Under the pieces are notes generated by a model, which was not told the origin of the DNA, ran no database searches, and saw nothing but the letters and a program-made list of their open reading frames with translations. From assembly GCF_000190755.2 (NCBI RefSeq), contig NZ_JH109152.1:124001-188000 (forward strand): a stretch of 64,000 bases of DNA, written 5' to 3'. Below are positions 18,079 through 23,973 of the stretch, piece by piece. The position numbers and the translations under genes were made by a program. How positions within the stretch are numbered: position 1 is the first letter of the stretch; each line of letters starts with the position of its first letter. The DNA comes from Methylobacter tundripaludum SV96 (GTDB lineage: Bacteria > Pseudomonadota > Gammaproteobacteria > Methylococcales > Methylomonadaceae).

Positions 18079-18801
18079 ATGAAGTTTAAAATCATTCCAA
18101 CGTTAGTTTATTTGTGCCTGTTACCGACGTTGATTGCGCTTGGAATGTGGCAATTGGATCGTTCCGAACAGAAACGGGCATTTCTTAAGGAGCAGGAGCG
18201 AGCGCTCGCAACTGAAACTCTGCATTTGTCGACGGCTATTGAACACAATACAGAGGCATTGAGATACAGAAATGTCGATGTTACAGGGCGTTACGATGTG
18301 GCGCACCAGTTTTTGATAGATAATCAAATCAGCGACGGGAAGGCAGGCTATTTTGTCTTGACGCCATTCATATTGACCGGGGAAACTAAGGCGGTTTTGG
18401 TGAACAGGGGCTGGATTCCTTTAAACCAGAATCGGTCGATTCTTCCTGATTTACAGATTAATAAGGCGGAAGCGATTATTGCCGGACGGATTAATAATTT
18501 TCCAAGCGTTGGTATAAAATTAGCCGGGGCGGAAATTCCAACCGAGGGTTGGCCATCAATAGTGCAGGTGGTTGATAGTGACGTTTTAGCTAAAAAATTA
18601 GGCTATTCATTATTCCAATTCCAGATTGAACTGGCTAAAGAGTTACCTGATGGCTATAAGCGGGAATGGCATACATCAACCATTATGCAGCCCGAACAAC
18701 ATACGGCCTATGCAATTCAATGGTTTGCATTGGCATTGACACTAACGATACTATTTATTTGGTACAGTTTTAAAAACAACGATGCAAAATCAAAAAAATA
18801 A
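18079..18801 (+). CDS. surf1: SURF1 family cytochrome oxidase biogenesis protein
   Basis: This 240-residue protein has the Surf1 layout: an N-terminal helix ('TLVYLCLLPTLIALGMWQL', where GxWQL is diagnostic), a periplasmic domain with 'VNRGWIPL' (about 113-120), and a C-terminal helix with 'HTAYAIQWFALALTLT'. SURF1 helps insert heme a into subunit I. It overlaps the next gene by 20 bp. Confidence 0.93.
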   Translation: MKFKIIPTLVYLCLLPTLIALGMWQLDRSEQKRAFLKEQERALATETLHLSTAIEHNTEALRYRNVDVTGRYDVAHQFLIDNQISDGKAGYFVLTPFILTGETKAVLVNRGWIPLNQNRSILPDLQINKAEAIIAGRINNFPSVGIKLAGAEIPTEGWPSIVQVVDSDVLAKKLGYSLFQFQIELAKELPDGYKREWHTSTIMQPEQHTAYAIQWFALALTLTILFIWYSFKNNDAKSKK

Positions 18802-19378
18802 AAATCATATATTAATTTTGGTTATCTTTGGGATGTCGGTTATTCCCTTTTTAATCGCTTGGGGATTAAAAGAACATCCGCAGCTGTTAAAGGGACAGAC
18901 CAATCATGGACAGTTAATAACGCCGCCATTGACAACCGAGCGTAGTGATCTAACCGGTTTTGACCGGTTTTCAACTGATAATATGTCCGAACTTACCGGG
19001 CACTGGCTGCTGGTAAACGTCATTCCAAATGGCGATTGTAATGAATCGTGTATCGAAGCTATTCATAAAACCAAGCAGTTACGGCTCATGCTGAATAAAG
19101 AATTGACCCGTACGCGTCGAATTGTCATGGTCTTAAAAGATGTTGCGCCGGAAACCGCTAGCAAATGGTGGGAAGATGACCAGACCTTATTAAGAGTTAA
19201 GCCCAATGATGCGGTTATCAAGAAAATTGCCGCAATCAGGCAAAGCAATATTCCTGACGGGATGCTTTTGTTAATGGACCCGCTGGGTAATTTAATGATG
19301 CAGTATGAACCGGGTTTCGATCCTTACAATGTAAAAAGTGATCTTATGCATCTTTTGCGAATCTCACAAATCGGATAG
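18782..19378 (+). CDS. Oxidase-associated membrane-anchored thioredoxin-fold protein
   Basis: This 198-residue protein has an N-terminal helix (about 10-27) and a periplasmic domain. 'WLLVNVIPNGDCNESCIEAI' (about 74-93) has the position and shape of the CxxxC copper motif in SCO proteins, and a Leu-rich segment with 'LLLMDPLGNLMMQYEPG' resembles the end of a thioredoxin fold. Such proteins commonly sit between surf1 and ctaA. It may help metallate CuA or keep its cysteines reduced. It overlaps surf1, and its stop TAG shares a base with the next start. Confidence 0.75.
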   Translation: MQNQKNKNHILILVIFGMSVIPFLIAWGLKEHPQLLKGQTNHGQLITPPLTTERSDLTGFDRFSTDNMSELTGHWLLVNVIPNGDCNESCIEAIHKTKQLRLMLNKELTRTRRIVMVLKDVAPETASKWWEDDQTLLRVKPNDAVIKKIAAIRQSNIPDGMLLLMDPLGNLMMQYEPGFDPYNVKSDLMHLLRISQIG

Positions 19379-21384
19379 TGGAAAATAAAATGTTTAGAAA
19401 AATAACTCTCTTTAGCGTTGTTTTAGCTTTAATAGTTATCGTAGCAGGCTCATACGTTCGTTTATCCGGAGCAGGGCTGGGCTGCCCTGATTGGCCTGGA
19501 TGCTATGGACAGGCCATTGTTAGCGAGCAAGCCGATTTTAAAGCGCAGGCGGCGGAGGCATTTCCCGGTCAGACGCCCGATATAGAAAAAGCCTCGAAGG
19601 AAATGAGTCATCGTTATCTGGCGGCAACCTTGGGCGTGACTATCTTGTTGTTGGCGTTGCTTTCGTGGCGCGAACAACAAAGTCGCCTGGCGGTCGTTAC
19701 GGCCGTATTGGGGCTGGTAATTTTAGTCGGATTGCAGGCGGCTTTAGGTATGTGGGCCGTCAAATTGCACGTTATGCCGATTGTCGTAACCGGCCATTTG
19801 TTGCTGGGCATGATGACTTTCTGGCTGCTATTCTGGTTGTATTTACGGGTTAACCCGAAAGCTTCGCTGCTCACAGTGCGCAGCAATGGCTTGGCGTTGT
19901 TTGCCCGAGTTGCAATGGGGGTGTTGTTTTTAGAGATTGTTTCAGGGGGTTGGGTTAGCGCTAACTATGCCGCTTTAGCTTGTTCGGGATTTCCTCAATG
20001 TAATGGCTCATGGTGGCCTAAAGCGGATTATCAAACGGCACTGGATTTATTTAACGGCTTAAGCACAGGTTATACCGGCGTCATAGCATTCGATGCGCAA
20101 GTCGCCGCAAATTGGCTGCATAGGGTCGGTGCGTTGGTTAGTTTTATCGTGCTGACGTTGTTGATGTTGAACGCGACATCGGCGCATCATCCAAAACCGG
20201 TCAGGCGAGCAGGCTTATGGCTAAGCGTGCTGCTGTTGGCGCAGGTTGGCTCAGGCATTATCGGCATTAAACTCGGGGCGCCTTTATGGGCTGCGGTGGC
20301 TCATAATGCTTTTGCAGCCTTGTTGATGCTGCCGTTGATTGCCATCAGCTTTTACAGTCGTCATGCTTTTGTTGAAAAGCTAAAGCCTGCCGCAGAGGTT
20401 GAGGCGAAACGCGAAGGCGTAGCCGTTCCTGCAGCGGAAGAAGCTTATCCGGCAGCGGAACCTGAGTCGCTATACCTGCGCCTTAAGACCCAGTTAAAAC
20501 GCACCCGTTCCGGGCTTAGCGGAGTATTGGCGCACATTCCCCTGGGTCGGCAAGAAATTGACGAGGATTTGCTGGAAGAAATTGAAGCCAGTTTGTTAAT
20601 GGCTGATATAGGTGTTGATGCGACCACGGAAATCATCAAGCGTTTGACTGAAAGTGTTGAGCGGCACCAGCTCAATGACGGCGAGGCGTTATCGGCCGCT
20701 TTAAAGCAGGAATTGCTGATTATGCTCCAGCCGTGCAGCAAGAATTTGCACATCCCAAAACAGGACAAACCTTTTGTTATTCTGGTTGTCGGCGTCAATG
20801 GCGCGGGTAAAACCACAACCATCGGTAAACTGGCCAAACGCTTGCAAGCTCAAGGCCATAGCGTCATGTTAGCCGCCGGGGATACGTTTAGAGCCGCGGC
20901 TGTCGAGCAATTGCAAACCTGGGGTGAGCGTAATAACATTCATGTAGTCGCTCAGCATACCGGGGCCGATTCGGCATCCGTTATCTATGACGGCGTTCAA
21001 TCCGCGCAGGCCAAAGGCATCGATGTGTTGATTGCCGATACCGCCGGACGTTTGCATACAAAATCCAACCTGATGGATGAATTGAAAAAAGTAAAACGGA
21101 TTATGAGTAAGCTGGATGAAACCGCGCCTCATGAAGTGTTGCTGGTGCTGGATGCCGGCACCGGGCAAAATGCCTTGTCGCAAACGAAACTGTTTAACGA
21201 AACTGTTGAATTGACAGGCTTGGTTCTGACCAAACTTGATGGCACCGCAAAAGGCGGTATTATTTTCGCGCTGGCCAAACAGTTCGGAATCCCGATTCGT
21301 TTTATAGGAATAGGCGAAGGTATTGATGATCTGCAGGATTTCGATGCAGATGCTTTTGTAAATGCATTGTTTGTCAAAGACTAA
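19378..21384 (+). CDS. ctaA-ftsY: Heme A synthase (CtaA/Cox15) fused to SRP receptor FtsY
   Basis: One uninterrupted 668-codon frame encodes two normally separate proteins. Residues about 1-330 form a complete CtaA: eight membrane helices, heme-ligand histidines H78, H131, H140, H248 and H309, and the external cysteine pairs C36/C42 and C202/C208. CtaA oxidises heme O to heme A. After an Ala/Glu/Pro-rich linker (331-364), residues 365-668 match the FtsY NG domain: 'LLMADIGV', P-loop 'GVNGAGKTTTIGKLA' (472-486), 'AGDTFRAAAVEQL', 'DTAGRLHTKSNL' and 'TKLDGTAKGG'. Eight helices with a cytoplasmic N-terminus would put the GTPase correctly in the cytoplasm. The usual acidic A domain of FtsY is reduced to the linker. 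The GTG at 19378 overlaps the previous stop; ATG 19390 is an alternative. No other ftsY or ctaA is in the window. Confidence 0.93.
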   Translation: MENKMFRKITLFSVVLALIVIVAGSYVRLSGAGLGCPDWPGCYGQAIVSEQADFKAQAAEAFPGQTPDIEKASKEMSHRYLAATLGVTILLLALLSWREQQSRLAVVTAVLGLVILVGLQAALGMWAVKLHVMPIVVTGHLLLGMMTFWLLFWLYLRVNPKASLLTVRSNGLALFARVAMGVLFLEIVSGGWVSANYAALACSGFPQCNGSWWPKADYQTALDLFNGLSTGYTGVIAFDAQVAANWLHRVGALVSFIVLTLLMLNATSAHHPKPVRRAGLWLSVLLLAQVGSGIIGIKLGAPLWAAVAHNAFAALLMLPLIAISFYSRHAFVEKLKPAAEVEAKREGVAVPAAEEAYPAAEPESLYLRLKTQLKRTRSGLSGVLAHIPLGRQEIDEDLLEEIEASLLMADIGVDATTEIIKRLTESVERHQLNDGEALSAALKQELLIMLQPCSKNLHIPKQDKPFVILVVGVNGAGKTTTIGKLAKRLQAQGHSVMLAAGDTFRAAAVEQLQTWGERNNIHVVAQHTGADSASVIYDGVQSAQAKGIDVLIADTAGRLHTKSNLMDELKKVKRIMSKLDETAPHEVLLVLDAGTGQNALSQTKLFNETVELTGLVLTKLDGTAKGGIIFALAKQFGIPIRFIGIGEGIDDLQDFDADAFVNALFVKD

Positions 21385-21392
21385 AGAGGCCT

Positions 21393-22049
21393 ATGTTAAA
21401 GTTTGATAATGTCAGTATGAGGTACCCTGGCGCAGGCGATGTCTTGCGTAATGTCAGTTTTCATCTGCAACGCGGTGAAATGGCTTTTCTGACAGGGCGT
21501 TCAGGGGCAGGAAAAAGCACATTATTGAAATTGATTGCGGTTATTGAGCGTTGCAGCCGGGGCCAGGTTTTATTGGACGGTCAAGATCTCAATCAGGCTA
21601 AGGATAGACAGGTTCCTTTCATACGCCGGAAAGTGGGATTGATCTTTCAGGATTACAAACTGTTACAGGATAGAACGGTTTTCGATAATGTAGCGTTGCC
21701 GTTAGTGATAGCAGGCTACGGACACCATGAAGTTTCCCGAAGGGTGAGAGCATCATTGGATAAAGTCGGCTTATTAGGCAAAGAAAGAAAATATCCTGCT
21801 GTCTTATCCGGTGGCGAGCAACAGCGGGTCGGGATTGCTCGGGCGGTGGTTAATAAGCCGCCGATGATTTTGGCCGATGAGCCGACCGGGAATCTTGATC
21901 CTGAACTGTCCGCCGAGATAATGCATTTGTTTGAGCAGTTTCAGCAGGTTGGCGTCACCATATTGATTGCTTCGCATGATATATCATTGATTGCCCAAAT
22001 GAATCATCGAATCTTAAAGCTGGATCACGGTCAACTGGTTGCAAGTTAA
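21393..22049 (+). CDS. ftsE: Cell division ATP-binding protein FtsE
   Basis: This 218-residue ABC ATPase pairs with FtsX at the divisome to control peptidoglycan hydrolases. Walker A 'GRSGAGKST' (about 36-44), Q-loop 'FQDYKLL', signature 'LSGGEQQRVGIARA' and Walker B 'MILADEPTG' are all intact. It starts 8 bp after the ftsY part of the fusion, preserving the ftsY-ftsE-ftsX order. Confidence 0.97.
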   Translation: MLKFDNVSMRYPGAGDVLRNVSFHLQRGEMAFLTGRSGAGKSTLLKLIAVIERCSRGQVLLDGQDLNQAKDRQVPFIRRKVGLIFQDYKLLQDRTVFDNVALPLVIAGYGHHEVSRRVRASLDKVGLLGKERKYPAVLSGGEQQRVGIARAVVNKPPMILADEPTGNLDPELSAEIMHLFEQFQQVGVTILIASHDISLIAQMNHRILKLDHGQLVAS

Positions 22050-23048
22050 ATGATGAAACATGTTAATAAAAAACCGGGTAAACAGGAACCGCGCTGGCAA
22101 ACCAAAATTTCGGGCGGTAATTTTGTCGATAAATTTCATGCTTATCGGAATCTTCATGCGCATGCGTTGTTTTCAAGTCTTGGACGATTAGTCGCATCAC
22201 GATTCTCTTCTGCAATGACAATCGTTGTTTTGGCGATTGCCATTTCACTCGCCAGCGGTTTTTATATTCTGGTGGCGAACCTACAGCAGCTGGCGGGTAA
22301 TTTGGAAGCCAGCAATCAAATTTCGTTATTTCTTAAAGACGACATTTCAGAAGCGAGGGCAAATAAGTTTGCGGGCGTCATCAGGCAAAACCCCGATATT
22401 CAGGATGTTAAATTAATTACCAAGGAGCAGGCGCTCGCAGAGTTCCAGTCATACAGCGGCTTCGGCGAAGCGGTAAAAGCCCTGGAAAAAAATCCGTTAC
22501 CGATTGTCATTCAGGTGTTACCCAAAAATTCATTTGAAAACGAGCAGGCGCTTGAGGTTTTGCTTGATGATTTTAAGCGCTCGGCGGAAGTTGATTTTGC
22601 CCAGATGGATATGCAATGGGTCAAACGCCTGCAGTCTATTATGGAAGTGGCGCGACGCGGCGTTATTTTATTGAGTTTGTTGCTGGGTGCGGGAGTGCTG
22701 TTTATTACGGCCAATACCATACGCCTGGAATTGCATAATCGCCGCGATGAAGTCGTGATCGCAAAGCTGGTGGGTGCGACCAACGGGTTCATTCATAGGC
22801 CGTTTTTGTACAGTGGTTTTTGGATTGGCTTTTTTTCCGGCGTGGCTGCATGGTTTATAGTGACAATCATCATGTTGATTTTAAAACAACCCATCGAAAA
22901 GCTTTCCGGACTTTATGATGACGCTTTCCATGTGCTGTTTTTCGGCTTTACCGAAACCTTGGCATTATTGTTTATCTCGTCTGTGCTGGGTGTGGTGGGT
23001 TCATGGATAGTACTGCATTTCCAACTGCGGCAATTAAAACCTGAGTAG
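22050..23048 (+). CDS. ftsX: Cell division protein FtsX
   Basis: This 332-residue permease-like partner of FtsE has a basic N-terminal tail, a first helix near residues 55-77, a periplasmic domain of about 110 residues, and three further helices in the C-terminal FtsX domain ('RLELHNRRDEVVIAKLVGAT' lies between helices). Its ATG directly abuts the ftsE stop, so the pair is coupled. Confidence 0.95.
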   Translation: MMKHVNKKPGKQEPRWQTKISGGNFVDKFHAYRNLHAHALFSSLGRLVASRFSSAMTIVVLAIAISLASGFYILVANLQQLAGNLEASNQISLFLKDDISEARANKFAGVIRQNPDIQDVKLITKEQALAEFQSYSGFGEAVKALEKNPLPIVIQVLPKNSFENEQALEVLLDDFKRSAEVDFAQMDMQWVKRLQSIMEVARRGVILLSLLLGAGVLFITANTIRLELHNRRDEVVIAKLVGATNGFIHRPFLYSGFWIGFFSGVAAWFIVTIIMLILKQPIEKLSGLYDDAFHVLFFGFTETLALLFISSVLGVVGSWIVLHFQLRQLKPE

Positions 23049-23082: not shown

Positions 23083-23115
23083 AATTCAAAAAAAGTTTTT
23101 TACATGGGAGTCGCA

Positions 23116-23973
23116 ATGAGTAACGCATTAGCTTTACCTATTAATTTATCAGTCGGAACATTTGACGCCTATCTAAATGTCGTCAGGCAAATGCCTAAAT
23201 TGACAGTAGAACAGGAACGCGAGTTAGCCTTAAAATTCAGGGATGATGGCGATTTGGAAGCCGCACGCGAATTGGTTATGACCAATTTGCGTTTTGTGAT
23301 TCACGTTGCCAGAGGCTACAGTGGATATGGCTTGTCTATGCCGGATATTATTCAGGAAGGTAATATCGGATTGATGAAAGCCGTTAAACGGTTTGACCCT
23401 GATGTTGGTGTGCGTTTGGTTTCTTTCGCCGTCCACTGGATTAAGGCTGAAATTCACGAGTATGTGATTAAGAACTGGGGCATCGTAAAAGTTGCTACCA
23501 CCAAGGCGCAGCGCAAACTGTTTTTTAACCTGCGTAAATCCAAGCAGGATTTAGGCTGGTTGTCCAATGACGAAGCGGTGGCGATTGCCAAAGACCTTGA
23601 TGTGGATGTGAGTACCGTTTACGAAATGGAAAAACGTCTGGGCAGCAGGGATATGTCGTTTGATATGCCGGTCGATGAATCAACGGAAGAAAGTTATGTT
23701 GCCCCGGCCAGTTACCTCCATCAGCACGGCGGTGATCCTGCGGTACTGCTTGAAAATTCGGATTGGGAAGGCCATGAGCAGGATTTATTGGCAGATGCGA
23801 TGGCGGAGCTGGATGAGCGCAGCCTGGATATTCTTTCAAGCCGCTGGTTGATGGACAAAAAAGCGACATTGCATGAGCTTGCCGAGCGTTACAATGTGTC
23901 CGCTGAGAGGATCAGGCAATTGGAACAAAACGCGATGAAAAAGTTGAGAGCAGCGGTTGAACTGGCCGCTTGA
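23116..23973 (+). CDS. rpoH: RNA polymerase heat-shock sigma factor RpoH (sigma-32)
   Basis: This sigma factor of about 285 residues directs heat-shock transcription. Region 2 contains 'GLSMPDIIQEGNIGLMKAVKRFDP' and the RpoH box is 'QRKLFFNLRK'; region 4 ends with 'ERYNVSAERIRQLEQNAMKKL', a helix-turn-helix for the -35 element. The ATG at 23116 is chosen because GGGAG lies 5 bp upstream; the ATG at 23104 would overlap that site. It follows ftsEX, as in other gammaproteobacteria, but has its own CIRCE-marked promoter region. Confidence 0.95.
   Translation: MSNALALPINLSVGTFDAYLNVVRQMPKLTVEQERELALKFRDDGDLEAARELVMTNLRFVIHVARGYSGYGLSMPDIIQEGNIGLMKAVKRFDPDVGVRLVSFAVHWIKAEIHEYVIKNWGIVKVATTKAQRKLFFNLRKSKQDLGWLSNDEAVAIAKDLDVDVSTVYEMEKRLGSRDMSFDMPVDESTEESYVAPASYLHQHGGDPAVLLENSDWEGHEQDLLADAMAELDERSLDILSSRWLMDKKATLHELAERYNVSAERIRQLEQNAMKKLRAAVELAA

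Follow-up and report, generated by a model that had tools for sequence, protein, structure and literature searches.

FtsY, the receptor of the signal recognition particle (SRP), is close to universal. This study was concerned with a gene of Methylobacter tundripaludum SV96 in which FtsY is joined, in a single open frame, to the heme A synthase CtaA. The gene lies in a stretch of 64,000 nucleotides (positions 124,001 to 188,000 of contig NZ_JH109152.1, assembly GCF_000190755.2), here called the window, and all positions are counted from its first letter unless a different locus is named. An earlier note, made from the letters of the window, had pointed out the fusion and proposed CtaA as a permanent anchor for FtsY.

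The fused protein shares the helix aN1 and the N and G domains with FtsY of E. coli. However, E. coli FtsY has an A domain where the fused protein has an eight-helix CtaA and a linker, and no soluble form would be expected here. The role of the soluble FtsY pool has long been debated, according to PMC2780400. The same source describes a construct of Zelazny (1997) in which a foreign membrane protein likewise tethered the NG part permanently and which was functional in E. coli; that construct was made in the laboratory, whereas the present fusion is natural and conserved through an order, and its anchor is a specific heme protein. Gram-positive and archaeal FtsYs with a transmembrane helix, and the tethered SR-alpha/SR-beta receptor of eukaryotes, are also described there (PMC2780400). 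They have permanent tethering in common with the fusion, but their tether is either one transmembrane helix or a GTPase subunit of its own, where the fusion has a polytopic enzyme that binds a cofactor.

Heme A synthase is described as holding its hemes by four histidines and a glutamate (PMC12808453). In the B. subtilis enzyme, E57, H60 and H123 lie in a front bundle thought to take heme o, and H216 and H278 in a back bundle that carries heme b (PMC12808453, PMC7327177). The front cysteine pair is important for activity, whereas the back pair is reported to be dispensable (PMC12808453). In the Aquifex enzyme the back bundle is described as the core of a trimer (PMC7327177). The type 1B (1.1) enzymes, to which that of B. 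subtilis belongs (PMC12808453, PMC8239418), match the window copy in their eight helices, in E57 and H1-H4 and in both cysteine pairs. The fusion differs from them in its C-terminal FtsY, and the catalytic half has decayed in most relatives, where the back cysteines are the better kept. Natural fusions of heme A synthase are already known in the form of CtaA-CtaB (PMC8239418, PMC12808453), as are membrane-tethered FtsYs. In CtaA-CtaB the partner is an enzyme that acts one step earlier in the same pathway, whereas here it is a protein-targeting receptor. Searches of a library of open papers brought up none that was recognised as dealing with a CtaA-FtsY fusion, although databases such as UniProt may well carry it as an annotation. 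As far as searched, the combination itself, its conservation through an order and its one-sided decay are undescribed.

The fused gene and its distribution

The frame has 668 codons, the CtaA part preceding the FtsY part. Pfam places COX15-CtaA at residues 9-318 (230.9 bits), SRP54_N at residues 390-446 (55.3 bits) and the SRP54 GTPase at residues 465-665 (258.8 bits), all above their cut-offs. A chance frame was rejected on these scores and on conservation. The mechanical start, GTG 19378, overlaps the stop of the upstream frame; because Met5 (ATG 19390) is found in 54 of 59 aligned fused sequences, the real start is probably ATG 19390, which would give a product of 664 amino acids.

The FtsY part proved to be the complete NG domain that the earlier note had read in it. 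Its best PDB sequence matches are the FtsY chains 2yhs and 5gad, with Ffh chains far lower, and Foldseek aligned it with E. coli FtsY (6cqp) at a TM-score of 0.93 by target length and 62% identity. The fold and PDB sequence rows listed were FtsY or Ffh chains only; no CtaA structure was among the 50 fold-search rows or the best 60 of 77 PDB sequence matches. As an SRP receptor, this part would dock SRP with mutual GTPase activation. It is the only FtsY candidate in the genome (4.85 Mb, three contigs). The next match, a frame of 464 amino acids at 34% identity (E 5.8e-41), was read as Ffh.

The order Methylococcales, made up mostly of methane oxidisers, was searched in 311 genomes from eight families. 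A frame was counted as joined when one match ran from residue 310 or lower to residue 420 or higher; in G547, two matches fell within one frame of 787 amino acids. Joined frames were found in 274 of the 291 genomes of six families, and most of 61 genomes of relatives hold the whole frame. Families f7 (18 genomes) and f8 (2 genomes) have no joined frame, and ctaA and ftsY are separate there where both were found. Nine joined rows count one stop within the matched stretch, with open frames of at least 659 amino acids; for one of them, G023, the locus L027 reads as a frame of 667 amino acids with both parts. Some joined rows are truncated at contig ends away from the junction. No intact separate ftsY was found in the 17 non-joined genomes of the six families, five of which are interrupted by contig ends (G614, G495, G583, G525 and G513) and in two of which (G604 and G467) the CtaA part does not share a frame with the FtsY part. 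Named records that bear the fusion include M. tundripaludum, M. marinus, M. luteus, Methylotuvimicrobium buryatense 5G and Methylovulum miyakonense, as well as records of Methylomicrobium, Methylicorpusculum and Crenothrix.

In a class sample of 369 genomes, four of which came from this order, three of the matches listed span the junction, all from the order. In a phylum sample of 299 genomes, the junction was spanned, among the matches listed, only in the genome of the window itself. If its FtsY were very divergent, a fusion could be absent from the matches listed in both samples. An assembly join or frame artefact was rejected: the same junction recurs in 274 genomes, several of which are in 1-5 contigs, and in named records of isolates, and no sign of such an artefact was found in the window, so that its probability is negligible. 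The earlier note had held that a lack of homologous fusions in related genomes, together with separate full-length copies of both genes elsewhere, would point to an assembly join. The fusion instead recurs across the order, and the observation is confirmed as genuine.

Residue conservation in the CtaA part

The window copy has a COX15-CtaA domain with eight helices and retains all nine key residues, namely the ligands E75 (E57 of B. subtilis), H78, H140, H248 and H309 and the cysteines C36, C42, C202 and C208. The earlier note had counted five ligand histidines and both cysteine pairs. Both pairs are present, but the ligands are four histidines and a glutamate, and H131, the presumed fifth histidine, varies widely in relatives.

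Across 59 fused representatives the residues of the front bundle were repeatedly lost. E75 is kept in 20, H78 and H140 in 42 each, C36 in 48 and C42 in 47, and at least one of E75, H78 and H140 is missing in 42 representatives. In contrast, all 59 keep C202 and C208, and 58 keep H248 and likewise H309. All nine residues occur together in 16, the window copy included. Of a larger set of 129 fused sequences, 127 or 128 preserve each of the back residues, 127 the axial histidines H248 and H309 (helices 6 and 8), and 35 all nine residues.

Standalone CtaAs of the class served as a control. All nine residues are present in 30 of 30 of these, although they were the 30 best matches to canonical CtaA and thus biased to intact copies, which weighs against the contrast with the fused set. 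They were drawn from 61 of the 114 genomes with any match, and the conservation alignment had 31 rows, including the f7 query. Mean identity in the control was 0.536 for the front half and 0.481 for the back half, against 0.338 and 0.395 in the fused set. At a conservation of at least 90%, the control had 46 columns in its N half and 41 in its C half, and the fused set 3 and 10. As judged from these alignments, the catalytic front half is decayed and the heme-b back half kept in most representatives. The C-terminal bundle is probably still loaded with heme b. The window copy perhaps converts heme o to heme a, as all its catalytic residues are intact.

Topology, linker and probable translation as one chain

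Helix counts were taken from AlphaFold models for the window copy and for a genus with six helices, not from hydropathy, where a low-threshold count gave 8 to 12 segments in full-length fused proteins, loops included. The model of the window copy, built on an alignment of 43 fused proteins, has eight long helices, a linker, the helix aN1 and an NG fold (mean pLDDT 84.0, pTM 0.55), with pLDDT below 50 at residues 334-361 of the linker. In genus g14, helices 2 and 3 have been lost together and six remain, in a model of moderate quality (mean pLDDT 70.1, pTM 0.45). The even number of predicted helices would return the chain to the cytoplasm in the eight-helix form, as the earlier note had argued, and six helices would still leave the FtsY side cytoplasmic in g14.

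The helix aN1 before the N domain was recognised by sequence and by predicted helices at residues 365-372 and 374-385 (pLDDT of about 56-65). It is kept in the fused proteins, but the linker has a mean pairwise identity of 0.22. With this linker of 35 residues between them, CtaA likely replaces the A domain of FtsY as a permanent anchor, in agreement with the earlier proposal.

The sole in-frame start-like codon between helix 8 and the N domain in the window is TTG 20527-20529, which lies in aN1 and has no Shine-Dalgarno-like word. Between helix 8 and the N domain, no ATG is present in 105 of 125 distinct fused frames, neither ATG nor GTG in 50, and none of ATG, GTG and TTG in 12; an ATG or GTG preceded by a Shine-Dalgarno-like word occurs in 9. 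One frame in this set of 125 (L124) is broken at a point further upstream. A separately translated FtsY was rejected as a general rule, as these frames gave no conserved internal start position. FtsY thus appears from the sequences to be produced in these bacteria solely as the C-terminal part of a membrane protein.

Standalone CtaA and the supply of heme a

The earlier note had suggested looking for second copies of both genes. The window genome has no second FtsY, but it has a second CtaA (L199, at G000:C3:192659-193552) of a type that differs from the fused copy. It carries the motif EYxNR and only the front cysteine pair, a pattern described for type 1C (1.3) (PMC12808453, PMC8239418), which it fits. 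All 21 aligned type-1C-like copies keep the glutamate, H140, H248 and H309 and have N at the position of the first histidine, a natural replacement as given in the literature. No cox genes were recognised around L199; AI-2E-transporter and HDOD genes flank it and a topoisomerase-type gene is close by. In genus g315 there is a further CtaA-like gene (L196 in G454, and G455:C13:504126-505070), and in its G454 copy a D stands at the position of the catalytic glutamate.

Most fused genomes carry a standalone type-1C-like CtaA. The four better genomes of g304 (94-99% complete) showed none, nor did G040 (94%), and in these the fused copy keeps all nine residues. Among the representatives, all four without a type-1C-like CtaA (G040, G623, G626 and G468) are intact in the fused copy, versus 12 of 55 others (one-sided Fisher p 0.004), a weak comparison of non-independent rows in which two of the four belong to one genus and G468 is 83% complete. 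A further 17 fused genomes were picked mostly for an absent or weak type-1C-like match. Among these, G622 (92% complete), G531 (90%) and G600, G050, G516, G520 and G529 (75-85%) have an eroded fusion with no or weak standalone match, and their sister genomes do carry a standalone copy. Weight comes only from the four g304 genomes and G040. The pattern is suggestive of heme a synthesis having been handed over to the standalone enzyme.

Explanations for the fusion

We consider it likely that the gene encodes one integral-membrane, permanently anchored SRP receptor, whose anchor was once a heme A synthase and is often reduced to the heme-b bundle. The even number of CtaA helices would bring the chain end to the cytoplasmic side, and the flexible linker and aN1 would hold the NG GTPase permanently at the membrane, leaving little or no soluble receptor. 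The front half would at first have been a working heme A synthase, and perhaps still is in the organism of the window. The catalytic front bundle would later have decayed in most representatives, where a standalone type-1C-like CtaA could supply heme a, while the back bundle, with its heme-b ligands and cysteine pair, would have been kept as the anchor of FtsY. The receptor might conceivably be trimeric, as the back bundle forms the core of the Aquifex CtaA trimer. The heme ligands may have been kept for a structural heme, as a sensor or for a role shared with the standalone CtaA. That the kept bundle is a heme-b, and possibly also a thiol/disulfide, module which senses heme supply or membrane redox or makes up the core of a trimer, and which thereby governs where the receptor works and how well, is a tentative proposal that we think rather doubtful. 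Methanotrophs house methane monooxygenase in intracytoplasmic membranes, as described in PMC9445010, and a link between these membranes and the fused receptor is speculation.

Several observations weigh against a permanently anchored receptor with a heme-b bundle. Two of the 129 fused sequences, L119 and L161 (G665), have lost both heme-b histidines, and L119 the back cysteine pair as well, so heme b is not indispensable. Most linkers contain at least one GTG or TTG codon, and single species may have weak internal starts there. The metagenome-assembled genome G604 (L276/L194) has its CtaA and FtsY parts spread over three frames, the FtsY frame opening within the N domain, which may reflect either sequencing error or real fission. 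No FtsY part was found in ten of the 17 non-joined genomes (G014, G015, G487, G581, G589, G627, G633, G636, G026 and G454), including G487, which is rated 100% complete. The linker may also be cleaved after translation.

This last possibility can be taken further, as a fusion at the gene level only: the linker would be cut after insertion and an FtsY similar to NG+1 would act as in E. coli. The disorder predicted for residues 334-361 and the low identity of the linker would suit a cut, and the kept helix aN1 may suffice for lipid binding by the freed FtsY. However, a cut leaves unexplained why a decayed CtaA with an even number of helices is kept where another CtaA exists, and NG+1 is described as only partially active in E. 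coli (PMC2780400). We regard this explanation as quite improbable. Somewhat less so, but still unlikely, is a bifunctional coupling, in which the fusion is kept because it brings heme a synthesis beside the targeting machine, for example to combine the insertion of cytochrome oxidase subunit I with its loading with heme. The window copy and 15 other representatives do keep all nine CtaA residues, the fused gene remains beside SURF1, and the fused copy is intact in g304 and G040, where no type-1C-like CtaA was detected. But 42 of 59 representatives have lost E75, H78 or H140 and yet retain the fusion, and the six-helix genus lacks the helix that bears E75 and H78. Strict coupling to heme a as a general reason was rejected on the loss in these 42, so in most lineages the fusion is not kept by heme a synthesis. 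The earlier note had tied protein targeting to this synthesis; as a general rule that does not hold, given these losses and the standalone CtaA, although it is possible in the organism of the window, because all catalytic residues are intact there.

A passive lock-in is compatible with a permanently anchored receptor and is the alternative to which we give the most room, while still thinking it on the unlikely side. Under it, ftsY lost its own start after the rearrangement, CtaA persists only as a needed N-terminus, heme b has no separate role, and the conservation of the C half reflects a need for folding alone. The lack of a conserved internal start agrees with this, as do the two sequences that retain the fusion without heme-b ligands and the essential nature of ftsY in model bacteria, as stated in PMC2780400. 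Yet a bare anchor needs none of H248, H309, C202 and C208, which are near-universal while their counterparts in the N half were lost repeatedly. The back cysteine pair, reported as dispensable for CtaA activity (PMC12808453), is here the invariant pair.

Origin of the fusion

A maximum-likelihood tree was made from the FtsY part of 59 fused sequences, 5 unfused sequences of the order and 27 of the class, one sequence being duplicated. A single branch, with support of 98/96 from a bootstrap that had not settled, sets all 59 fused rows apart, and the unfused sequence of f8 is nearest to this branch. The simplest reading of the tree is a single origin within Methylococcales.

The unfused families show the two clusters near each other. 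At L192 (f8), the plus strand carries ftsY, ftsE, ftsX and a sigma-factor gene, preceded by minus-strand M16-peptidase genes. After the sigma-factor gene come a COX1-family gene and a DEAD-box helicase, and then, on the minus strand, a UbiA-family gene (ctaB), ctaA, a frame of 208 amino acids and a SURF1-sized frame of 238 amino acids. At L163 (f7), the ftsY-ftsE-ftsX cluster is opposite in strand to ctaA, which ctaB adjoins. The clusters stand tail to tail, 9 kb apart in L163 and 6 kb apart in L192. Across these loci, Pfam was applied to the genes for UbiA, the sigma factor, the COX1-like protein, the helicase, MCP and M16, and the ftsE, ftsX, SURF1 and further cox labels follow from size and order. 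The COX1-family gene of L192 (7537-8898, 53 bits) has the sigma-factor gene on one side and the cox cluster on the other. The window genome has two UbiA-family genes, both away from the fused gene, one of which is presumably ctaB. We infer that a local rearrangement of two nearby clusters fused ctaA and ftsY once; a local inversion with loss of the ctaB neighbor would have left ctaA ending where ftsY begins.

Gene neighborhood

Features of the locus are collected in Table 1. The earlier note had placed the fused gene between a cytochrome oxidase cluster and ftsE-ftsX-rpoH. This arrangement is borne out by Pfam for COX11 and SURF1 upstream and for an ABC-type FtsE, FtsX and a sigma factor downstream, while the COX2, COX1, COX3 and RpoH labels come from reading of translations and gene order. 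SURF1 lies within 4.5 kb upstream in 79 of the 85 fused loci that have more than 2 kb of upstream sequence, and a frame of 198 amino acids is the nearest recognised upstream neighbor in 83 of the 85. Downstream, ftsE is the first recognised gene in 73 of the 92 loci with more than 1.8 kb of sequence on that side. The frame of 198 amino acids has a hydrophobic N-terminus and a CxxxC motif (GDCNESC), which we take to be reminiscent of Sco1-like copper chaperones.

Table 1. Positions of the fused gene, its parts and its neighbors in the window.
Feature	Positions	Strand	Basis or remark
ctaA-ftsY fused frame	19378..21384	+	open frame, Pfam; likely start ATG 19390
CtaA N-terminal bundle, helices 1-4 (substrate-heme/catalytic half)	19390..19857	+	Pfam, alignment, model; roles as described in PMC12808453
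N-bundle residues	C36, C42; E75 19600-19602; H78 19609-19611; H140 19795-19797	+	
CtaA C-terminal bundle, helices 5-8 (heme-b half)	19870..20361	+	alignment, model; role as described in PMC7327177, PMC12808453
C-bundle residues	C202 19981-19983; C208 19999-20001; H248 20119-20121; H309 20302-20304	+	
Linker, residues 329-363	20362..20466	+	pLDDT <50 at 334-361; no in-frame ATG, GTG or TTG
FtsY helix aN1 (LYLRLKTQLKRTRSGLSGVL)	20467..20532	+	aligned to E. coli FtsY NG+1
FtsY N domain (SRP54_N)	20545..20715	+	Pfam
FtsY G domain (SRP54 GTPase)	20770..21372	+	Pfam, PDB sequence and fold matches
SURF1-family gene, upstream	18079..18801	+	Pfam
Conserved frame of 198 amino acids directly upstream	18782..19378	+	no Pfam family at E 0.001
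ftsE, 8 bases past the fused stop	21393..22049	+	Pfam
ftsX	22050..23048	+	Pfam
Sigma-70-family gene, rpoH by position and translation reading	23104..23973	+	Pfam for the family only

Implications

Most of an order seems to live with an SRP receptor that is unable to leave the membrane, and the fusion is a natural counterpart of the 1997 laboratory construct. The decay of the front bundle, with the heme-b half kept, is a natural experiment that separates the two bundles of CtaA, and it raises the question of whether heme b influences protein targeting. Methylotuvimicrobium buryatense 5G, which bears the fusion, is amenable to genetics. If heme b does have such an influence, these bacteria might possess an SRP receptor with a built-in heme sensor, derived from a captured heme A synthase that was stripped of its catalysis.

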